NCBI GenBank assembly: GCA_017516465.1 | Contig: JAFXCR010000022.1 | Span: 1 to 36,605 of the forward strand | Direction: 5' to 3' | DNA length: 36,605 bases | Source: Ruminococcus sp. | GTDB lineage: Bacteria > Bacillota > Clostridia > Oscillospirales > Ruminococcaceae | Part shown: piece after piece, positions 23,665 to 33,794 of the stretch | How the letters are laid out: every line of letters starts with the position of its first letter | How positions within the stretch are numbered: the stretch's first letter is position 1 | Position numbers and translations under genes: made by a program | The notes under the pieces: model-generated | Database searches by the model: none | Seen by the model: the letters and a program-made list of their open reading frames with translations, nothing else | What the model was told of the DNA's origin: nothing

Positions 23665-25913
23665 AGAATCCGCTTATCAGAAGGCTTCCCCGTGAGCTTA
23701 AAAGTGACGCAGGAAAATACCTGATAATTTTTACTTTTATGATTATTCTGATAGGATTTGTTTCTGGATTTCTTGTAGCTTCAGGAAGCCTTATGAAAAT
23801 TTATAATGAAAGCTTCGAAAAGTACAATATTGAGGACGGAAACTTTGAATTCTATTTTGAAGCTGATGAAACTACTCTTGAAAAAATTGAAACAGACGGT
23901 GATATCAGGATTTACGAGAATTTTTATATAGAGTGCGAAACCGGAGAGGTTGACAGCACGCTCCGTATATATAAAAAACGTGAGGAAATCAACAAAATCT
24001 GTATTCATGAAGGAAAGCTTCCTGCAAACATAAATGAAATTGCAATTGACAGAATGTATGCAGATAATAATTCTCTTGAAGTAGGGGATAGTTTAACCGT
24101 CGATGGTAAGAAACTGAAAATTACTGCACTTGTAGCACTTTCTGATTACAGTGCCCTATATGAAAATCCGTCAGACATGATGTTCGATGCAATAAAATTC
24201 GGTGTTGCCGTAATGAATGATAACGGTTTTAATGAAATGGACAAAACAGATTTCCATTATAACTATTCGTGGAAATACAATAATCCTCCTGCTGATGATG
24301 ACGAGGCAAAGAAAATGTCAGAGGAACTGCTTGAGATTATTTCTTCAAACGGAATTATAACAGAATATATTCCCATGTATATCAATCAGGCAATCCGGTT
24401 TGTGGGAGAAGATACCGGTAATGACAGAGTATCCATTACTGCATTTATGTATCTTGTAATAGCGATTCTTGCCTTTATAATGGCAATCACCACTAATAAC
24501 ACAATTGCAAAGGAATCTACTGTTATCGGAACGCTTCGTGCTTCCGGCTACACAAGAGGGGAGATTCTCCGTCATTATATTGCAATGCCGATGCTTGTTG
24601 TAATTGTATCAGCGATTATCGGAAATATTCTCGGATATACTGTTTTTGAAGATATTGCAAAAAATATTTATTATGCAAATTACAGTGTACCGGTTTATAA
24701 AACTGAGCCGAGTGCAGAAGCATTTATAAAAACAACGATTGTTCCCGCTGCAATTATGTTTGTCATCAATCTCGCGATTATTTCATACAAGCTGAGACTT
24801 TCTCCTTTGAAGTTCATCCGACGTGATCTTAAGACAAGACAGCGTAAAAAGGCATTGAAGCTTAGTTCACGAATCGGTATAATGCACCGTTTCAGAATAA
24901 GGATAATTCTCCAGAATATTCCGAATTATGTTACTATTGTTATAGGAATATTCCTTGCAAATGTGATTTTCCTCTTTGGTATGGGATTTCCGGAGTTGCT
25001 TGACACAAACAGCAGGCTTATTTCAGAGAATATCATCAGTAATTATCAGTATGTGCTTAAAGTACCGATTGAAACTGATAACACAGACGCAGAAAAATAT
25101 TGTGCCGGAACTCTGAGTACATTCGGTGGAAAGGTCAAAAGCGAAAGAGTGACTGTTTACGGTCTTATTCCGGATAGTAAATACATCGACATTGATACTG
25201 AAGAAGGCATTTATATTTCAGAGGGCTATTCACAGAAATTCAGAGTCAATAAAGGTGATAAAATTACCCTGAAGGAAGAATATGGTACAAAGAAATTCAG
25301 CTTTAAGGTTGCAGGTATTTACGATAACCCGACTACAATTGCTGTTTATATGGATAAGAGCTTCTTCAATGAAACTTTTGGCTACGAAGCGGATTATTTT
25401 AACGGCTATCTTTCCGATAAGAAGCTTGACGATATCAATAAATTATACGTTGCAACAATTGTTACAGAAGATGATATGGATAAGGTCGGACATCAGATCA
25501 ATCATTCTCTGGGTGGGATTTTTGATATGTTCTATGTATTCGGAATTGTAATGTTCATGCTGATAATTTACCTGCTTTCCAAAATTGTAATTGAAAAGAA
25601 CACACAGTCTATTTCCATGACTAAGATTTTAGGATACAGCAACAGAGAAATAGGTGGACTGTATGTTGTTTCTACAAGTATTGTTGTAATTATTTCGTTT
25701 ATTCTTACGATGCCACTTGCAAATATTATCATGAAATATATCTGCGTATTGGTTTTCTCTGAATTTTCTGGCTGGATTCCATATGAATTATCTTTCTCTG
25801 TATTTGTGAAAATCATTGTTTCCGGTATTATTGCTTATTCGGTAATTGCATTTGCACAGTTCAGACGTGTAAAGAAAATTCCAATGGATACAGCACTTAA
25901 GAATGTAGAATAA
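23661..25913 (+). CDS. FtsX/MacB-type ABC transporter permease
   Basis: 750 residues. A first transmembrane helix (about 20-43) is followed by a large extracytoplasmic domain (45-250), three helices (about 255-380, with TLRASGYTRGEILRHYIAMP, the FtsX coupling segment), another helix near 425, a second extracytoplasmic domain (455-600) and three final helices with TKILGYSNREIGGLYVVS as the second FtsX segment. Proteins of this type export lipids, peptides or antibiotics, or transmit force; they are not classical metal pumps. RBS GGGGGAG precedes the ATG; translation is coupled to the ATPase gene. Many Asp/Glu residues lie in the outer domains, but no clear metal site was seen. Confidence 0.88.
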   Translation: MKNPLIRRLPRELKSDAGKYLIIFTFMIILIGFVSGFLVASGSLMKIYNESFEKYNIEDGNFEFYFEADETTLEKIETDGDIRIYENFYIECETGEVDSTLRIYKKREEINKICIHEGKLPANINEIAIDRMYADNNSLEVGDSLTVDGKKLKITALVALSDYSALYENPSDMMFDAIKFGVAVMNDNGFNEMDKTDFHYNYSWKYNNPPADDDEAKKMSEELLEIISSNGIITEYIPMYINQAIRFVGEDTGNDRVSITAFMYLVIAILAFIMAITTNNTIAKESTVIGTLRASGYTRGEILRHYIAMPMLVVIVSAIIGNILGYTVFEDIAKNIYYANYSVPVYKTEPSAEAFIKTTIVPAAIMFVINLAIISYKLRLSPLKFIRRDLKTRQRKKALKLSSRIGIMHRFRIRIILQNIPNYVTIVIGIFLANVIFLFGMGFPELLDTNSRLISENIISNYQYVLKVPIETDNTDAEKYCAGTLSTFGGKVKSERVTVYGLIPDSKYIDIDTEEGIYISEGYSQKFRVNKGDKITLKEEYGTKKFSFKVAGIYDNPTTIAVYMDKSFFNETFGYEADYFNGYLSDKKLDDINKLYVATIVTEDDMDKVGHQINHSLGGIFDMFYVFGIVMFMLIIYLLSKIVIEKNTQSISMTKILGYSNREIGGLYVVSTSIVVIISFILTMPLANIIMKYICVLVFSEFSGWIPYELSFSVFVKIIVSGIIAYSVIAFAQFRRVKKIPMDTALKNVE

Positions 25914-25980
25914 GCTTTTAAGTCAATACCGCATTATGTACGCATTTAGGCTTTATGCAATGTTGTCTTAAATTTAAATG

Positions 25981-26015
25981 AAAAAGTCGTATGTATTTTC
26001 TGCATACGACTTTTT
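25981..26015. terminator. Terminator after the ABC permease gene
   Basis: AAAAAGTCGTATG (25981-25993) / CATACGACTTTTT (26003-26015), a 13-bp perfect stem with a 9-nt loop, A- and T-flanked. Confidence 0.85.
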
Positions 26016-26019
26016 GAAT

Positions 26020-27023
26020 ATTGGTTTTGTACTGATGCTGCTTACAGTTATAATAATATATTCTGATTGGCAGAAAGCATAAATATTAGGAATTATTTTC
26101 TTATTGATCATTGCTATCGTTGACAATGTATTTATCAATTTTATATCATATACATTAAAAATACCGTTAAATGAAATATATCAGGAATTTTCGCTGTGTC
26201 GTGTGTTGGCGATAATAAGCTCAAAGACGGTACTTATACTGATTGTAATTCTTATCAATAAATTACTTGCAAAGAAAAGAACGCTTCAGAGGAAATATCT
26301 TTTTATTCTGTTCGGAATTACATCTATAATGTTTTTTTGTCACTGTGTTGATAACCTTTAACGAAATTAAAGATAAAGCGACAAATTCGACTATTTCAAT
26401 TCTATTCTTCTCAGTTATGCTGATACTGCTTATGACCGTCTTTTTTCGGGACGTTCAAGCTTGCAGAATATTATGAAAATCAACAGGAACTAAAACTTAC
26501 AACGCTTAAAAATCAGATGCTGGAAAAGTCGATCAGTGAAACAGAACACACATTTATGCTCTGGAAGAAAAGTTTGCATGATTATAAACATAATATTGCG
26601 GATCTGATGACACTTGCGAATAATAATAATAACGTAGAGGGGATAAAAAACTTTCTTAAAAACGAAAATGAGCTGTTGAACAGAAAATTTTTTTATTACA
26701 AGACAGGAAATGATACAGTTGATACAATTCTAAATATCAAGCAGTATTCCTCCGAAGAAAAGGAGATTACTTTTATAATTAATGCCGAAATTCCCGAGGA
26801 ATGTCCCGTTGCTTCAGCACATTTTGCCTCTATTCTCGGAAACCTTCTGGATAATGTCATAGAAGCATCAGAAAAAGAGGATGCACCTTTTATAGAGGTT
26901 AAGATCAAGCCTGTAAAAAGTTACCTGATGAAAGTTATTTCAAATAAATGTACAAGGAAACATATTGATTTTGAAACGAGAAAATCAGAACGCTTTTTTT
27001 TAAAAATGACAATTCGCACATAA
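26020..27023 (+). pseudogene. AgrC-like (GHKL) sensor histidine kinase, broken
   Basis: Pieces of one kinase lie in changing frames. Hydrophobic fragments MLLTVIIIYSDW (about 26047), then ILGIIFLLIIAIVDNVF to FCHCVDNL (26083-26361), then TISILFFSVMLILLMTVFF (about 26390-26445) are membrane segments. After another shift, LAEYYENQQELKL joins the dimerisation/phosphoacceptor helix with KSLHDYKHNIADL (His box, about 26570) and the N box ILGNLLDNVIEAS (about 26840). The frame ends at 27023 just after SNKC...ETRKSERFF, where the G2 ATP-lid box (GxGL) should follow but is missing. At least three disruptions plus loss of the ATP-lid mean no functional kinase. In Agr systems AgrC senses the cyclic peptide. 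Confidence 0.8.
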
Positions 27024-27076
27024 AAAACGACAATTCAAGCAAGATTTAATACAAATTATAATTTATATGTTATACT
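27009..27076 (+). promoter_or_regulatory. Agr-type activator promoter A: direct repeat plus -10, before the Spo0A-like gene
   Basis: ACAATTC occurs at 27009-27015 and 27030-27036, exactly 21 bp apart, the spacing of LytTR (AgrA/VirR) half-sites. TATACT at 27071-27076 is the probable -10 and no good -35 lies before it, as in activator-dependent promoters. TATAAT at 27057-27062 is an alternative -10. Confidence 0.6.
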
Positions 27077-27204
27077 GAAGTTATAAGGAAAACCGACGAT
27101 TTTATTCAGAATAATCTTGTAAAAAACATTCTGTAAAAATTACGACTATATTACAGTAATAATTCCTGATTGCTGTAACAATAAATTAAAAAGGAAGGAC
27201 AAAA

Positions 27205-27591
27205 ATGAATAATCACCTTACAACTTCAAATGCAAATAACAAATATCTGATTGAGTATATCTCAGAATTTCTCATTGATCTGGGGATAGATCCTGAACTT
27301 AAAGGATTTAATTACATCGGAGAAGCCGCAGTCATGTTTCCAGATATAATTCGCTCCAATAAATCCGTCAAGGATTTATATCGCATTATTGGTGAAATTT
27401 ACGATACTTCGCCTAAAAGAGTTGAACGTTTGATAAGAATGTCACTTGAAGCTGCATGGTACAGTGATAAAATTAATTTATCGAACAAAATATTTGATTC
27501 TCAGTATTTCAATGAACAAAATATTCCCTCAAATGCCCGATTCATCGCTGCTGTATCTGAAATTATCAGAATGAAGTTTATATGTATTTAA
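27205..27591 (+). CDS. Stand-alone Spo0A C-terminal-type DNA-binding protein (no receiver domain)
   Basis: 128 residues, start ATG 27205 with AAGGAAGGAC upstream. Residues about 16-126 align along the whole Spo0A effector domain: ISEFLIDLGIDPELKGFNYI corresponds to the Spo0A helix ending IKGYQYL, and TSPKRVERLIRMSLEAAW to the recognition-helix region TPSRVERAIRHAIEVAW. SNARFIAAVSEIIRMKF matches the C-terminal helix. The N-terminal phosphoreceiver of Spo0A is absent, so phosphorylation cannot control it directly. It probably binds 0A-box-like sites (TGTCGAA). It lies between an AgrC relic and an AgrD-like gene and has an Agr-type promoter, suggesting control by peptide signalling. Confidence 0.8.
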   Translation: MNNHLTTSNANNKYLIEYISEFLIDLGIDPELKGFNYIGEAAVMFPDIIRSNKSVKDLYRIIGEIYDTSPKRVERLIRMSLEAAWYSDKINLSNKIFDSQYFNEQNIPSNARFIAAVSEIIRMKFICI

Positions 27592-27642
27592 GGAAAAAAT
27601 AGAGTGGATAATTCATAAAAAGTGCAGGATGATGTAAGATTA

Positions 27643-27649
27643 TTCGACA
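27643..27649 (-). promoter_or_regulatory. 0A-box core (TGTCGAA) upstream of the agrD-like promoter
   Basis: On the minus strand the 7-mer TGTCGAA, the Spo0A box core, lies 18 bp before the direct repeat of promoter B. A 7-mer can arise by chance; its position next to a gene for a Spo0A-like protein makes it notable. Confidence 0.35.
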
Positions 27650-27666
27650 TTTTTCGCACACAATAT

Positions 27667-27734
27667 ACAATTTACGCATAAAAAATGACAATTCGTGCAT
27701 GATCTGACACAAAGCAATTTATTTATGATATAAT
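27667..27734 (+). promoter_or_regulatory. Agr-type activator promoter B: direct repeat plus -10, before the AgrD-like gene
   Basis: ACAATTT (27667-27673) and ACAATTC (27688-27694) are 21 bp apart; TATAAT is at 27729-27734, with exactly the same distance from the second repeat as in promoter A. A gap-free alignment of 27009-27094 with 27667-27752 matches at about 63 of 86 positions by hand count. Confidence 0.6.
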
Positions 27735-27828
27735 AAAGTTGTAAGGTCAACCAATAGTATTTCCATAATGACAGGAAGTAAATTCGGAATAGAAATAATT
27801 TTGATGTTTCAGAAAAGAGAGGAAAGTT

Positions 27829-27963
27829 ATGAAAGCAAAATTATCTGATGTTATTAAAAAGACTTTCAAGAACCTTGCGGTTTCATCAAGCGAAACTACT
27901 TCTGTTTTTGCACTTTATCAGCCCATTACTTCTAAGACACTTGTTAAATCTGAAAAGAAGTGA
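27829..27963 (+). CDS. AgrD-like cyclic lactone autoinducer pre-peptide
   Basis: 44 residues, start ATG 27829 with GAGAGGAAAGTT upstream. The layout is that of AgrD: an amphipathic basic N-terminal helix (MKAKLSDVIKKTFKNLAV), a core SETTSVFALYQPITSK and a charged Lys-rich tail. The core has the aromatic-x-P step (YQP) where AgrB cleaves, but Ser replaces the usual Cys, so a lactone rather than a thiolactone ring would form. It is followed 10 bp later by an AgrB gene, which is broken. Too short for standard gene callers. Confidence 0.75.
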   Translation: MKAKLSDVIKKTFKNLAVSSSETTSVFALYQPITSKTLVKSEKK

Positions 27964-27973
27964 GGTATGGTAA

Positions 27974-28563
27974 ATGTTTCATAATTTTGCGATGGATATT
28001 ATATTTTGGTTAATCAGAAACAAAATAGTAGATGTCGAAAACAGAAACATTTATATATATGCTCCTGAAATCATTCTGCTGAACGGAGGACTTCTGATCA
28101 CTTTTCTGATAATCAGTCTGCTGTGCGGAGAAATTAAAAATTTCTTTGCATACTTGATGTTTTTCTACCGTTGAGATCGTTTTCAGGAGGATACCACGCT
28201 GAAACAAGTGAAAGCTGTTTCATTTTGTCAACAATTATGTTCGGAGCATCAATTGCAGCTTCAAAGCTTATTCCGCGTTGTTTGTTTCAAATGCTGGAAT
28301 AATAAACGGTACTTATAATATTAACCTTTGCACCGCTTATAAATGAGAATAATCACTTGAACAGATCTCAGCGGAACCGCAACAGAATTATTGTTTGCAC
28401 ACTGATATTCCTTGACCTTGTGTTTTTCATCATATTGCTATAATTATGCTTGGACAATAGCGACGAATGAGTTGATTTTCATTGCTATGAATGCTTTGCT
28501 TCTTCTGGTCGGATAGCTGAAGAGCATAATTCGTGGCTCGTATCATAGATCTGAATTAATTTA
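27974..28563 (+). pseudogene. AgrB-like peptide protease, frameshifted
   Basis: The ATG at 27974 begins FAMDIIFWLIRNKIVDVENR, and the frame stops at 28172-28174. The protein continues in another frame from 28168 with PLRSFSGGYHAETSESCFIL, which has the AgrB catalytic His (GGYHAE) and Cys. It then meets two tandem TAA codons (28300-28305). The same frame goes on with VLIILTFAPLINENNHLN and RIIVCTLIFLDLVFF to a stop near 28440, after which ATNELIFIAMNALLLLVG follows with a further shift. AgrB cleaves and cyclises AgrD in the membrane. With one frameshift between the first membrane helix and the catalytic residues and several stops, it cannot make a full enzyme. Confidence 0.85.
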
Positions 28564-28600
28564 AATATTGATGTAATCAATAATTACATCTCCTTTAAAT

Positions 28601-28695: not shown

Positions 28696-29334
28696 TCAAA
28701 AAAAATCAGGGGCAAGATTCTTATAGTAAAATACAGCAAGCTGTGTGCGATCACGAAGCTTAAGTTTTTCAAGGATTGTACTGAGGTAATTGCGGACAGT
28801 ACCTTCGCTAAGATAAAGGTTTGAAGCAATTTCCTTATTGTTGAGACCTTCTGCTACAAGACCTATAAGCTGCATTTCCTTTTCATTCAGATCATACATT
28901 GAGCCATCGGGAATTATCTGTTCTCGTTTCATCTGTTGCTGCATATGACTGACAACGGTTTCTCCCAAAACAGTCTGACCTCCCATAACAGTTTCAAGAG
29001 CAGGAGCGATTCCTTCAAAATCCTGTTTGAGTATGTAGCCTTTTGCACCGATTTCAAGCGCGTTCTTTATATATTCGTCATCTGTGAAGGTGGTAAGAAA
29101 CAAGATTTTTGCCGACTTATCCTCAGAAAGAATAATTCTGCCTGCATCAATACCTGTCATGCCATCCATTCTTATATCCATAAGAACGACATCAGGATTG
29201 TGAAGACGATACAGGTCAATAGCTTCTTCTCCGCTGTGTCCGAGTGCGGCAACAGTGATTTTGCCTGTTGCTTCAAGGATTGTTTTAAGTGATACAGTAA
29301 CTATGTTATCATCATCTATAATTATTATTTTCAT
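28696..29334 (-). CDS. NarL/LuxR-family response regulator
   Basis: 212 residues. The receiver domain has the acidic pocket IDDD (residues 6-9), the phosphoacceptor Asp53 in VVLMDIRMDG, Thr in FLTTFTD and Lys in GYILKQ. The C-terminal LuxR helix-turn-helix is EGLNNKEIASNLYLSEGTVRNYLSTILEKL. It is phosphorylated by the kinase encoded 2 bp upstream and probably acts on the intergenic inverted repeat at 30462-30503. The ATG at 29334 has AAGGAAAG upstream. Confidence 0.95.
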   Translation of the reverse strand: MKIIIIDDDNIVTVSLKTILEATGKITVAALGHSGEEAIDLYRLHNPDVVLMDIRMDGMTGIDAGRIILSEDKSAKILFLTTFTDDEYIKNALEIGAKGYILKQDFEGIAPALETVMGGQTVLGETVVSHMQQQMKREQIIPDGSMYDLNEKEMQLIGLVAEGLNNKEIASNLYLSEGTVRNYLSTILEKLKLRDRTQLAVFYYKNLAPDFF

Positions 29335-29336
29335 GA

Positions 29337-30398
29337 TTAATCTTTCCTTATCGAAATAAATATTCTGAATCCATTTTTATCGGAATTGATGTTGAAAATA
29401 CCGCCGAGTTCCTCGATGCGGGTACGCATATTGAAAATACCTATGCCATTTTCATGTATGTCTTTGGAACAGCTTCCGTTATCTTCGATTTTAAGCTGCC
29501 AGAAGGCGGGATGTTCCGTAAAGATTATTGATGCACGATTTCCGCTGCTGTGCTTGATTATATTTGAAACAGATTCTTTTACAATAGAAATCAGCGAAAG
29601 CCTGACTCTTACCGGAACATTTTCAGAGCAGCAGCATTGATATTCGACGTCAAATCCTTTTTCGTACAGGGGCTCGACAGCTTCTCTTATTGCATAATCA
29701 AGTTCAAGTGAATTATCATGCAGATTATGTACGCTTTGTCTGATGGAATCCATAGCACTTCCGAGCGTTCCTGCGAGATCATTCAGACCATCCTTCCTGA
29801 CATTTTCATCGTTAATAAGCTTGAGTGCCTGAACATGAAGAATTGAACGTGAAAGCAGGTGACCTACATTGTCATGGATTTCACGGGCAATTCGGTTTCT
29901 TTCGTTGAGCGTTGCAAGGTGTACTTCATAGTTTTTGCTTTCAGTAAGTCTGAGATTATTTTCCTTGAGATGACGTGTAACTTCAGTAGAATGATCGACA
30001 GTGCTTATATAGCTTTTAAACAGATTTTCAAATGTAGAGGTTCTGTGAGCCAGATAAACAGCAATAGTATAAATCATCAGAATAGGAATGGGGATAAGTG
30101 AAGGATCTGATGCCAGAATGAATACAGTAATTCCACCTGCTATGGCAATATGTGGAAAAAGTTTATAGTTGTAAAGATCATATATTATAGGCGGAAGTGC
30201 CAAAGCAAAAGACGGAAAGACTGTACACATAATAATATACAATAATCCTGCGGCAAATGTAAATTTTTTGCTATCAGTATATTGAAACAGCGCCGAAAGT
30301 GCAGTAGCAACAAGAATAGCGATAATTTCCGGAGTTGTTCTTCCGCAGAATATACAACAGAATATAATGAGAATAAGCTTATCCGTAATTTTTTTCAA
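29337..30398 (-). CDS. Sensor histidine kinase, NarL-partner (HisKA_3) type
   Basis: 353 residues from TTG 30398 (AAGGAGGCGGAGC upstream). The N-terminal third is made of about five hydrophobic helices with almost no external loops, as in intramembrane-sensing kinases responding to cell-envelope or peptide stress. The phosphoacceptor motif ERNRIAREIHDNVGHLLSRS lies at about residues 162-181, followed by the HATPase N box KESVSNIIKHS and the G box ENGIGIFNMRTRIEELGG. It pairs with the NarL-type regulator; the operon faces away from an ABC-2 exporter operon that it most likely controls. Confidence 0.93.
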   Translation of the reverse strand: MKKITDKLILIIFCCIFCGRTTPEIIAILVATALSALFQYTDSKKFTFAAGLLYIIMCTVFPSFALALPPIIYDLYNYKLFPHIAIAGGITVFILASDPSLIPIPILMIYTIAVYLAHRTSTFENLFKSYISTVDHSTEVTRHLKENNLRLTESKNYEVHLATLNERNRIAREIHDNVGHLLSRSILHVQALKLINDENVRKDGLNDLAGTLGSAMDSIRQSVHNLHDNSLELDYAIREAVEPLYEKGFDVEYQCCCSENVPVRVRLSLISIVKESVSNIIKHSSGNRASIIFTEHPAFWQLKIEDNGSCSKDIHENGIGIFNMRTRIEELGGIFNINSDKNGFRIFISIRKD

Positions 30399-30505: not shown

Positions 30506-30534
30506 TTACAAATGCTTATGAAATATGTTAGAAT
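30506..30534 (+). promoter_or_regulatory. Promoter of the ABC-2 exporter operon
   Basis: TTACAA (30506-30511), 17 bp, TAGAAT (30529-30534), downstream of the inverted repeat. Confidence 0.65.
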
Positions 30535-30563
30535 ATATTCAGAAACGTAGGGAGGTATCTGAA

Positions 30564-31517
30564 ATGTCAGAAACAGTTGTTAAAATTGAAAATCTTGTCA
30601 AGCGTTACAAGGAGCTTGTTGCACTTGACCACCTTAATCTTGAAATAAAAAAAGGCGAAATCTTCGGTCTTCTCGGACCAAACGGAAGCGGAAAGACAAC
30701 GGCAATAAACTGTCTTTTGTCACTTCTTTCTTATGATAAGGGAGATATTGAAATTTTTGGTGAAAAAATGACGCCTACATCATACGTTCTTAAGAAACGT
30801 ATCGGTGTAATTATGCAGAATGTTGCTGTTCTTGAGGAGCTTACCGTATACGAGAACATAGATTTTTTTTGCGGACTTTATGTTAATGACAAGGTGGCAA
30901 GAAAGAAATATGTTCAGGAAGCGATTGAGTTCACGGGACTTGAGGAGTTCGTAAAATTCTATCCTAAAAAACTTTCGGGCGGACTTCTCAGGCGTCTTAA
31001 TATAGCTTGCGGAATAGCACATAAGCCTGATCTTATTATTCTTGATGAGCCCACTGTTGCCGTAGATCCCCAGAGCAGAAACAAGATTCTTGAAGGTATA
31101 CAGAAGCTCAACAGCGAAGGTGCTACAGTTATCTACACATCGCATTACATGGAAGAAGTAGAGCAGATATGTACACGCATTGCTATTATTGATAAAGGAC
31201 ACAGTATTGCTGTCGGAACAAAGGATGAACTTAAAAATATGATACACAATACTGAAACCATAAAAATTGAGGTAATGGAGCTTTCCGACGAAGCACTGAA
31301 ACGTATAAGAGAGCTTGAATATGTCTATAAGACAACTATTGAGAATAACCTGCTTGAAGTTTACTGCAGCGGAGGAACTCATAATCTAATGGATATTCTC
31401 AATATACTTAACGATTACGGAACGCTTCTCGGCAGAATTTATTCAGAGCAGCCTACGCTTAATGATGTGTTCCTTGAAATCACCGGTAAAGAGCTGAGAG
31501 ATACGGAGGGACAATAA
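30564..31517 (+). CDS. ABC-2 exporter ATP-binding protein
   Basis: 317 residues from the ATG at 30564 (MSETVVKIENLVKRY; GGGAGG 8 bp upstream; an earlier in-frame ATG overlaps the promoter and is unlikely). Walker A GPNGSGKTT, signature LSGGLLRRLNIACG, Walker B LIILDEPTVAVD, H-loop YTSHYMEEV. The C-terminal about 85 residues form the extra domain of the DrrA/BcrA/NatA type. It powers export with the two permeases that follow. Its stop overlaps the next start by one base. Confidence 0.93.
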   Translation: MSETVVKIENLVKRYKELVALDHLNLEIKKGEIFGLLGPNGSGKTTAINCLLSLLSYDKGDIEIFGEKMTPTSYVLKKRIGVIMQNVAVLEELTVYENIDFFCGLYVNDKVARKKYVQEAIEFTGLEEFVKFYPKKLSGGLLRRLNIACGIAHKPDLIILDEPTVAVDPQSRNKILEGIQKLNSEGATVIYTSHYMEEVEQICTRIAIIDKGHSIAVGTKDELKNMIHNTETIKIEVMELSDEALKRIRELEYVYKTTIENNLLEVYCSGGTHNLMDILNILNDYGTLLGRIYSEQPTLNDVFLEITGKELRDTEGQ

Positions 31518-32647
31518 TGTTTCTGCATAATCTTAAATATGAATTGCTGAGTAACATCCGCATGAAGGATTTTATCTTCTGGATGATGTGCTTTCCGATA
31601 GCTTTGGGTACATTTTTCTATCTTGGTTTCGGAAAGGTTTATAATAACGAAATTGTTTTTTCAAAGATTCCCGTTGCCGTAGTTGAAGTAAATGAAGATG
31701 AAGTGTTCAATACGACTGTAAAAAGTATCGAAGCCGAGAAAGATCCCCTTTTCAGTTTCACCTATACCGACAAAGCAGAAGCGGAAAAGCTTCTCAAAGA
31801 GGGAGACGTCGAAGGAATCATTACCGTTGACGATGATTTATCACTTACATTCTTCAAGAGTGAAATCGACCAGACAATTATCAAATCGTTTGTTGAACAG
31901 TTCGTTTCACAGAAAGCCGTTATAACTGATATAGCTATGAACGCTCCAGAAAAGCTTCCGGAGGTTACGGAGAAGCTTAATGCTGTTCCGGACGCAATAG
32001 AAAATAAATCGCCTTCCGGTGGAAACATGAATCCGTACGATTCATATTTCCAGAATCTCTTGACAATGACAGCTTTGTTCGGGATGATAACAGGAGTGCT
32101 TTGTGCAACAAGAAATCAGGGAAATCTTTCAGCTATCGGTGCAAGAAAGTCTATATCTCCGAATTATGGCTTAGTCAGACTGATATCGTCTCTGACAGCG
32201 GCATTTATTACTCAGATTATATCTGTAATTGCTGCAACAACCTTTGTGCTTTTCATTCTGAAAATAAATTTAGGTGACAATATTGCTATGGTTTATTTAT
32301 CAGGAGCTATCGGAGCATTAGTGGGAATATCAATAGGATTTTTTATCGGAGCCATCGGAAGAAGTTCGGAAAGAACAAAAGGAGCTGTGTCTACTACTGT
32401 TATGATGTTCCTTTGTTTCCTCAGCGGACTCATGGTGGGCGATATGAAAAACACCGTAGAGGAGCATTTCCCTATTATCAACAGAATCAATCCTGCGGCA
32501 CTTACAAGCAATCTTTTCTATTGTCTGTCATTATATGACGATTATAACAGATACATGGAAAATTTATTATCGCTCATGATAATTTCGATACTGTTTATTA
32601 CAGGAGGATTTCTGCTCACAAGGAGAAAAATATATGAAAATCTTTGA
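31517..32647 (+). CDS. ABC-2 type permease, first subunit
   Basis: 376 residues with the ABC-2 plan: one N-terminal helix (about residues 20-38), a large extracytoplasmic domain (40-180) and five C-terminal helices. The GKVYNNEIVFSKIPVAVVEVNED stretch at the first loop is typical of YhgE/Pip- or LinJ-like ABC-2 exporters. GSS/GAIGRSSERTKGA precedes the fourth helix. It pairs with the second permease to form the membrane channel. ATG overlaps the ATPase stop (TAATG). Confidence 0.88.
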   Translation: MFLHNLKYELLSNIRMKDFIFWMMCFPIALGTFFYLGFGKVYNNEIVFSKIPVAVVEVNEDEVFNTTVKSIEAEKDPLFSFTYTDKAEAEKLLKEGDVEGIITVDDDLSLTFFKSEIDQTIIKSFVEQFVSQKAVITDIAMNAPEKLPEVTEKLNAVPDAIENKSPSGGNMNPYDSYFQNLLTMTALFGMITGVLCATRNQGNLSAIGARKSISPNYGLVRLISSLTAAFITQIISVIAATTFVLFILKINLGDNIAMVYLSGAIGALVGISIGFFIGAIGRSSERTKGAVSTTVMMFLCFLSGLMVGDMKNTVEEHFPIINRINPAALTSNLFYCLSLYDDYNRYMENLLSLMIISILFITGGFLLTRRKIYENL

Positions 32648-33794
32648 GACATTCATGAAAATAATGCGTAAGCATCTTAAATTGTCGCTTATATATATAT
32701 CAGTATTTATGGTTGTTGGAATTATGATGACAAAGTCAAGCTCTGATAGTGAAGACGGCTACAAAGCCCGTCGTCTGAGAGTCAGCGTCACCGACCTTGA
32801 CGATACTGAGGCGAGCCGTGCCGTTGTTGATTTTATTGCAAAGAATCATGATATAGTTAAGGTCAGTGATGACATGAACAAACAGCTTGATTCGCTGTAC
32901 TATTCAAAAACGCACATTATACTTACAATTGAGAACGGATATTCCGAAAAGCTTGAACACGGCGAAACAACCGGACTTTTCAATGAACTCAGTGTTCCCG
33001 GCACGAATATGACTCAGCTTTTTGATTCACAGCTCAATCGTTATATCGGTCTTGTCAGTGCTACAATCGCAGGAGGCAATACGCCTGCTGAAGCTTCTGC
33101 AAAAGCGTCTGAAGTACTTTCTCAGGAAATAGAAACAGTAATGTTAAATGATTCTGGAAAGGGCTCCGAAAAGGAAGATGTTCAGAATCACTACTTCCTG
33201 TATCTGGCTTATATTTTCATATCTGTTCTGATAAATACACTCTGTCAGATACATCTTTCATTAAAGAATAAAGACATAAATAACAGAATCAACTGTTCAG
33301 GAGTATCTTCGTATTCACAGCTCCTGCAGGTAATGCTCGGAACATTCGTGTTTGTCATCGGGGTATATGTATTACTTATCGGAGCAGGTGTAGTACTCTT
33401 TGGCGGAAGTATGTTTACAGAAAAAGGTATGCTTTCAATGTTGAATGCGTTTGTGTTCATAATAGTTGTTATGATGATATGTCTCTTTATATCGTCGTTT
33501 TCACCGTCAATGGATGTTATAAGCTTAATTGCAAATGTTATCGGTCTTGGAATGAGCTTTCTTTGCGGAGTTTTCGTTCCGCAGCAATATCTCGGAGATG
33601 TAGCATTAAGTATCGGAAAGTTTCTTCCGGTTTACTGGTATGTAAAAGGATGTAACACTGTAATGGAAAAGGAAGGGGAGATATTCTCTGTAAGCGGATT
33701 TTTAATCTGTATCGGAGTACAGATTGCATTTGCAGCAGCATTCTTCTGCCTGACGATGCTGATTTCCAAAAATAGAAGACAAACAGAATCATAA
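32634..33794 (+). CDS. ABC-2 type permease, second subunit
   Basis: 386 residues, the same plan as its partner: helix at about 17-33, outer domain 38-175 (RRLRVSVTDLDDTEASRAVV at its start) and six C-terminal helices including GMSFLCGVFVPQQYLG. It overlaps the previous gene by 14 bp, with AAGGAGAAAAATAT as RBS. The operon resembles drug or antimicrobial-peptide export systems controlled by NarL-type two-component systems; the actual substrate is unknown. Confidence 0.88.
   Translation: MKIFETFMKIMRKHLKLSLIYISVFMVVGIMMTKSSSDSEDGYKARRLRVSVTDLDDTEASRAVVDFIAKNHDIVKVSDDMNKQLDSLYYSKTHIILTIENGYSEKLEHGETTGLFNELSVPGTNMTQLFDSQLNRYIGLVSATIAGGNTPAEASAKASEVLSQEIETVMLNDSGKGSEKEDVQNHYFLYLAYIFISVLINTLCQIHLSLKNKDINNRINCSGVSSYSQLLQVMLGTFVFVIGVYVLLIGAGVVLFGGSMFTEKGMLSMLNAFVFIIVVMMICLFISSFSPSMDVISLIANVIGLGMSFLCGVFVPQQYLGDVALSIGKFLPVYWYVKGCNTVMEKEGEIFSVSGFLICIGVQIAFAAAFFCLTMLISKNRRQTES

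Follow-up and report, generated by a model that had tools for sequence, protein, structure and literature searches.

Agr loci of the S. aureus type combine AgrB, AgrD, AgrC and a LytTR regulator, with direct repeats before agrD. RgaR of C. difficile is also a LytTR protein. RgaS-RgaR is reported to act on agrB1D1 through 21-bp repeats with no cognate agrC or agrA alongside, and RgaR sites require G at -51 and -72 (PMC10602386). Published LytTR sites consist mostly of two 9-bp repeats, 12 bp apart, and the HdrRM and BrsRM systems are reported to carry repeats of this kind at the promoters of bacteriocins and operons (PMC6193735). One survey takes Spo0A_C as a unique mark of Spo0A among response regulators (PMC6136694).

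The window is a 36,605-nt stretch of Ruminococcus sp. DNA, and the locus studied occupies 26.0-28.55 kb on its plus strand. An agrC relic, an intact 128-codon spo0A_C gene, an agrD-like gene and an agrB relic follow one another in this order. Relatives are labeled G for genome and L for locus; L163 belongs to G029, L081 to G052, L195 to G041 and L180 to G004.

Decayed agr genes around an intact Spo0A_C gene

The features of the locus are as follows.

26023..27023, plus strand: agrC relic (tblastn with L163 AgrC, residues 68-406, E = 1.8e-118)
26517-27023, plus strand: GHKL domain PF14501 in the agrC relic (E = 2.2e-7)
27009..27110, plus strand: spo0A_C promoter, a LytTR-type direct repeat of 21-bp period with a -10-like TATACT (0 mismatches in the pattern search)
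27205..27591, plus strand: receiver-less Spo0A_C protein, 128 aa, intact (PF08769, E = 8.7e-20, 71.1 bits, cut-off 25)
27643..27649, minus strand: 0A-box-like heptamer TGTCGAA between spo0A_C and agrD
27667..27768, plus strand: agrD promoter, a LytTR-type direct repeat with a -10-like TATAAT (1 mismatch)
27829..27963, plus strand: agrD, 44 codons, open (TIGR04223, 19.2 bits, cut-off 19)
27974..28531 (end approximate), plus strand: agrB relic (tblastn with L164 AgrB, E = 2.5e-61)

The intact 428-aa AgrC of L163 was used as the AgrC reference. The agrC relic lacks the first ~67 residues and the C-terminal end, and it is spread over three reading frames with one in-frame stop. No intact AgrC-type kinase is encoded in the window; full-length AgrC is present in relatives. 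The AgrB N-terminus (27974-28174) matches PF04647 with 27.3 bits, and the remainder lies in other frames, giving three frame segments in total with at least two stops. The AgrB protease/transporter is recognizable in the window, yet broken, and it is intact in G052 and others. The main AgrC piece is 72% and the AgrB N-terminus 73% identical to intact agr loci from this genus, values that exclude chance resemblance. AgrD is 65% identical to L163 AgrD and passes the TIGR04223 signature marginally. The initial annotation had placed an AgrC-type kinase relic, an AgrD-like gene, an AgrB relic and a Spo0A_C-only protein on this strand within 2.6 kb, and the domain matches and agr identities bear this out.

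Comparison with intact loci of the genus gave no real match to an agr response regulator at the locus (E = 0.11). A LytTR response regulator is missing there and is carried by intact relatives. The sole LytTR protein of the window's genome (1.99 Mb, 95% complete) lies elsewhere in a 187-aa frame, which by its length is too short for a receiver plus LytTR. Two GHKL matches occur elsewhere in this genome, one of them under the cut-off. With agrC and agrB broken and the regulator missing, the sensing arm is dead here; the spo0A_C gene is still intact. No RNA families were found at the locus.

The Spo0A_C gene has its own start and a ribosome-site-like sequence. The PF08769 match spans positions 1-102 of the 104-position profile and thus the whole domain, in line with the initial placement of the 128-residue protein in the Spo0A_C family. 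The full-length Spo0A model TIGR02875 gave 69.6 bits, where >200 are needed, and aligned only over profile positions 141-258 of 262. Sequence comparison also matched the protein to solved Spo0A effector domains (1FC3, E 9.8e-12; 1LQ1, E 2.3e-11). The window's genome also encodes full-length Spo0A and SpoIVA, and the window protein is 28-29% identical to the domain of that genome's own Spo0A. The recognition helix, which we take to contact DNA via the VER-motif residues, keeps RVERxIR in the window protein. VER is kept in six of the ten proteins of alignment A1 (window, G050, G029, G039, G052 and G090), and VN or LN replaces VE in the remaining four.

Promoter repeats before agrD and spo0A_C

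The spo0A_C promoter (from 27009) and the agrD promoter (from 27667) are copies of each other, with 66/88 bases identical (E = 9e-13). The initial annotation, made from the sequence only, did not contain this duplication. The layout of a LytTR target promoter, two ~9-bp direct repeats with a ~12-bp spacer upstream of a promoter, was found with a period of 21 bp. This equals the published LytTR repeat period, and the repeats are therefore read as the predicted site of the lost LytTR regulator. They would be bound by an AgrA-type regulator, and the window spo0A_C gene looks like a target of such a LytTR protein.

A strict pattern (≤3 mismatches) gave two matches in the 1.99-Mb genome, both at this locus, and none in a reversed control; the pattern was drawn up after the window had been inspected, and the window matches are therefore not independent. 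The same promoter layout precedes agrDB in L163, L166, L190, L164, L156 and L185, and in more divergent form in L081. A looser scan, with a motif built from the window, L081 and L169, returned 20 matches in 1.37 Mb versus a shuffle mean of 1.5, with three loci counted twice through overlapping matches. Two of the matches, in L073 and L087, were outside agr loci.

The strict pattern was also run on 10 genomes and gave 7 matches in 5 of them: two in the window, three before agr genes (G029, G094 and G122), one before a lipoprotein-ABC operon of G122 and one in G045. The G045 match has 3 mismatches and is chance-like. The pattern did not occur before the Spo0A_C-linked operons of G050, G029 and G041. 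No repeat before the Spo0A_C gene of G052 passed the scan, and the agrD site of this genome was also below the cut. The G122 operon has a perfect repeat and no Spo0A_C gene. The G050 operon resembles it (ATPase 68% and permease 32% identical), has no repeat, and its last gene is the Spo0A_C gene with the highest score against that of the window among the matches listed. This tie between G122 and G050 would be no more than an indirect link between the Spo0A_C group and Agr-type control.

The suggestion that Spo0A replaces the LytTR output of Agr was rejected as a general reading because intact relatives keep a LytTR regulator (L163, PF04397, E = 4.7e-17; also G052 and G041). The resemblance of the window spo0A_C gene to a LytTR target likewise speaks against it.

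Spo0A_C genes and agr loci across Ruminococcus

The genus set comprised 125 genomes, 65 of which have an AgrB match. AgrB loci (107) were taken with ≤5.5 kb per side, often shortened by contig ends, and matches below 23 bits were left out; with L081 and the window, 109 loci were examined. They were searched with a Spo0A_C profile built from the short proteins together with four Spo0A domains. A Spo0A_C frame lies within 5.5 kb in 7/109 loci, the window included. The six loci outside the window compare with 0.95 expected (Poisson P = 4.5e-4), an expectation derived from 299 extra Spo0A_C copies per 324 Mb, applied to the 1.03 Mb in AgrB stretches with copies treated as independent. Four loci are left without G004 and G119, for which P is about 0.02 (same mean, by hand). 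Spo0A_C is on the agrB strand in five of the six.

G052 (L081): LytTR response regulator, AgrC, AgrD, AgrB, Spo0A_C (138 aa); intact agr genes with Spo0A_C adjacent
G090: AgrB, AgrD, Spo0A_C (141 aa), then a 262-aa degenerate Spo0A paralogue; Spo0A_C adjacent to agr
G002: response regulator, AgrC, AgrB, AgrD, two exported proteins, Spo0A_C (125 aa)
G041 (L195): agr, exported protein, lipoprotein, ABC genes, Spo0A_C (122 aa), nearly 5 kb from agrB
G004 (L180): order as in G041, AgrD not found, Spo0A_C in a 223-aa protein
G119: 73-aa frame on the strand opposite agrB; weak evidence

The G090 paralogue has a poor receiver match (18.7 bits, cut-off 30.2), and inspection by eye showed no aspartate where phosphorylation would be expected. 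G090 is the one locus that has intact agrB and agrD but no AgrC or LytTR gene seen within about 5.5 kb; two LytTR proteins are encoded elsewhere in its genome. Spo0A_C lies at the distal end of agr/export clusters with all genes in one direction in G041, G002 and G004. Among ten mapped loci of the window's own agr type, only G052 has a Spo0A_C gene, and several of the ten lie on short contigs, the shortest 3.1 kb. The expectation that Spo0A_C-only genes co-occur with intact agr genes in relatives therefore holds in part: the arrangement recurs, adjacent in G052 and G090 and within clusters in G041, G002 and G004, but it is rare.

A Spo0A_C search gave 423 matches in 124/125 genomes; allowing each genome one Spo0A leaves about 299 additional copies. 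Searching with the window protein gave at least 30 short frames (≤188 aa, window included) in 26/124 genomes; one of them (G011) has internal stops. The surroundings of 29 other short Spo0A_C genes were read in 28 stretches, and neighboring products were judged mostly by eye, with profile checks only in the G041 cluster. Ten genes occupy one conserved position after the same genes. Upstream of the others are exported-looking products (7), ABC-transporter genes (6), agrB (1, G052) and other or unseen neighbors (5). Thus 28/29 are not directly at agr; one of these, the G041 gene, ends an agr cluster. The ABC ATPase of G041 is nearest to lantibiotic-protection ATPases, under the cut-off of that model.

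In a tree of 35 Spo0A_C domains, a branch with support 100/98 has 15 rows on one side, with both Spo0A itself and the conserved-position group lying apart from them. These rows include those of the window, G052, G041 and the ABC cases, and the group is linked to ABC-transporter, exported-protein and agr genes. The window row sits on a long branch (0.76), and where exactly it belongs within the group is unsure. The Spo0A_C domains of G090, G002 and G004 fall outside this group, closer to Spo0A and with long branches, so the linkage was not inherited as a single arrangement. Agr linkage required 5 changes on the tree versus a shuffled mean of 6.1 and was as low in 108/500 shuffles. Judged from these sequences, the linkage is apparently one that was gained in more than one lineage or often lost.

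The group alignment matched 9 loci in named genomes, 7 of them Ruminococcus and five of those from ruminant guts; an earlier named-genome scan gave no match. In 396 family genomes at E ≤ 1e-24, a limit at which more distant ones are missed, the only frames outside the genus were in G481 (129 aa) and G352 (183 aa), and no agr genes were near either in a locus of 2-3 kb each. Phage records gave 12 matches, and the four inspected hold Spo0A-length proteins in bacterial-looking surroundings.

0A-box-like heptamers number 3 in 25900-28600 and 21 in the whole window, with no clear excess over chance. A 0A box as the operator of the window spo0A_C gene was rejected, with none within 250 bp upstream. 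Only 1/14 examined members of the window protein's group has an upstream box. The 28 upstream stretches together contain 16 boxes versus 3.3 in shuffles (L090, with internal stops, was left out). These are mainly in the conserved-position group, where 8/9 examined members have one at about -99; the loci are orthologous, and their boxes are therefore not independent.

A model for the locus and its relation to known systems

The reading we prefer, at a probability of roughly 0.5, is that these genes are what is left of an Agr quorum-sensing locus that had received a receiver-less Spo0A_C gene and held it under Agr control. The window protein is most likely a second-tier regulator whose amount was set by Agr. 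In the proposed mechanism, the AgrB/AgrD peptide would activate AgrC, and AgrC would phosphorylate the LytTR regulator. The LytTR regulator would bind the 21-bp direct repeats and drive both agrDB and spo0A_C, the latter from the duplicated promoter in the window or by its position behind agrB in G052. The steps up to the promoter are predicted from sequence. The Spo0A_C protein would then bind DNA without phosphorylation, as the RVERxIR kept in the recognition helix suggests, and its effect would be set by the quantity made because it has no receiver to phosphorylate. The proposed regulation by amount fits the promoter evidence. The protein may act on 0A-type boxes or on neighboring exported-protein/ABC operons. 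The intact G052 locus, the six AgrB loci above expectation, the duplicated promoter and the confinement of the repeat to this locus speak for the reading. The nine mapped relatives' loci without Spo0A_C, some of them on short contigs, the scatter of agr-linked proteins over the tree, the 28/29 short genes not directly at agr and the lack of a 0A box upstream of the window gene speak against it.

Other explanations account for parts of the data. The Spo0A_C-only protein may be a dedicated regulator of exported-protein/ABC-transporter operons that comes near agr because such operons are sometimes Agr-controlled, without carrying the Agr signal itself. This is a possible reading that we hold less probable than the preferred one. 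It accounts for the same-strand short genes behind exported-looking products (7/29) and ABC-transporter genes (6/29) versus 1/29 directly at agr, for the order agr, exported protein, ABC genes and Spo0A_C common to G041 and G004, and for the lantibiotic-protection likeness of the G041 ATPase, itself below the cut-off. It leaves unaccounted for that Spo0A_C adjoins agrD or agrB, no ABC gene intervening, in the window, G052 and G090, and that a separate copy of the agrD promoter precedes the window spo0A_C gene. The promoter duplication, which sets spo0A_C under an agr promoter, also argues against chance neighbors, the reading that a regulator, mobile or duplicated, came to lie between the agrC and agrD genes of a decaying locus with no signaling meaning. 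The broken agrC and agrB genes, the missing LytTR regulator and the rarity and scatter of the linkage over the tree are as expected from such an event, but six loci outside the window exceed the expectation and five have Spo0A_C on the agrB strand; we regard chance as improbable.

Agr-controlled Spo0A_C could also compete with Spo0A for its boxes and so delay sporulation at high density. The RVERxIR of the window protein and the full-length Spo0A and SpoIVA of its genome are compatible with such a dampener, but VE is replaced by VN or LN in 4/10 proteins of alignment A1, which points to altered DNA targets rather than competition in those four. This role is unlikely, if somewhat less so than chance placement. 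That spo0A_C is a fragment of a degrading spo0A paralogue is very improbable. The many Spo0A_C copies of the genus speak for it, but this gene has its own start, ribosome-site-like sequence and promoter, encodes the full domain and belongs to a supported group of equally short proteins. No close relative with a receiver in frame upstream was seen.

The preferred reading of an Agr-controlled Spo0A_C gene has a more tentative extension to the genus. Receiver-less Spo0A proteins of Ruminococcus might more than once have become a second tier of Agr, with the peptide setting their amount rather than their phosphorylation and density thereby reaching a Spo0A-like regulon; we consider this doubtful. 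In G090, with its agrB-agrD-Spo0A_C-degenerate Spo0A order, the Spo0A_C route may even be the main Agr output. Spo0A_C has been copied many times without its receiver in this genus, often beside export genes and sometimes beside genes of quorum sensing. Should Agr control these proteins, density signaling would reach Spo0A-type promoters without phosphorylation. The hosts are gut bacteria, nearly all with the spore gene spoIVA (SpoIVA in 122/125 genomes, the window's included), so a link from the Agr locus to sporulation is possible. The window copy is a relic; the similar intact loci in relatives suggest that cell-to-cell signaling could determine how much of a Spo0A-like regulator is made, and the two intact-looking loci of G052 and G090 make the idea testable.

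All component families are known. The combination of a receiver-less Spo0A_C with a predicted Agr/LytTR-type promoter, and an agr locus with a Spo0A_C-only protein, were not found described in the open-access literature searched. The intact relatives share with S. aureus-type Agr the four components and the direct repeats before agrD; the locus here differs in its extra receiver-less Spo0A_C gene, its broken agrC and agrB and its missing regulator. The agrBD arrangement of C. difficile RgaS-RgaR can be compared with G090. That system reaches sporulation through SpoZ and an unknown factor, and no Spo0A_C-only gene is mentioned in the accessible part of that paper (PMC10602386). HdrRM and BrsRM resemble the window in their promoters but use membrane inhibitor proteins, not a peptide-sensing kinase, and a Spo0A_C protein is not mentioned in the accessible part of the source (PMC6193735). 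Full-length Spo0A has the Spo0A_C DNA-binding domain and RVERxIR in common with the window protein; it also has a receiver, whereas the window protein has none and hence no phosphorylation switch.

0A box at the conserved-position genes

The heptamer TTCGACA, an 0A box, lies ~99 bp 5' of the start of the Spo0A_C-only gene in 8 of the 9 loci examined from the second group of receiver-less Spo0A_C genes, which occupy one conserved position (L075, L077, L078, L080, L082, L085, L088 and L089). Its presence there suggests that these genes are controlled by Spo0A or by their own product.

Neighbors of agr genes

Two sets of genes lie downstream of the agr relic in the window:

28696-30398, minus strand: NarL-type response regulator and HisKA_3 kinase
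30525-33794: adjoining genes that resemble an ABC transporter operon by eye

Both are unconnected with the relic. Five AgrB loci of related genomes (L156, L161, L162, L164 and L166) encode small exported-looking proteins of 132-154 residues 3' of agrB, and in several of the loci lipoprotein and ABC genes come next. Of the small proteins, those of L162 and L164 were scanned and had no Pfam or NCBIfam match. The small proteins are candidate Agr-controlled secreted proteins or bacteriocins. In genome G090, a Spo0A paralogue whose receiver is degraded (L169:3785-4570) adjoins agrBD and a receiver-less Spo0A_C gene.

Spo0A_C proteins on plasmid, viral and phage-filed records

Matches to the window protein are present on four plasmid records (H13-H16), three annotated as spo0A (Sedimentibacter, Paenibacillus bovis and Monoglobus) and the fourth from Subdoligranulum. 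The viral contig IMGVR_UViG_3300024303_000330 encodes a 117-residue Spo0A_C-only protein (L289:5980-6333), and the same stretch holds a terminase-like gene, judged by eye. This protein is possibly a phage-borne receiver-less Spo0A. Two further viral loci, L290 and L291, gave weaker matches. Four phage-filed records (H1-H4: MT835718, MT836727, MT835715 and MT835504; loci L292-L295) encode Spo0A-length proteins that sit amid bacterial-looking genes. These records are probably bacterial contigs.
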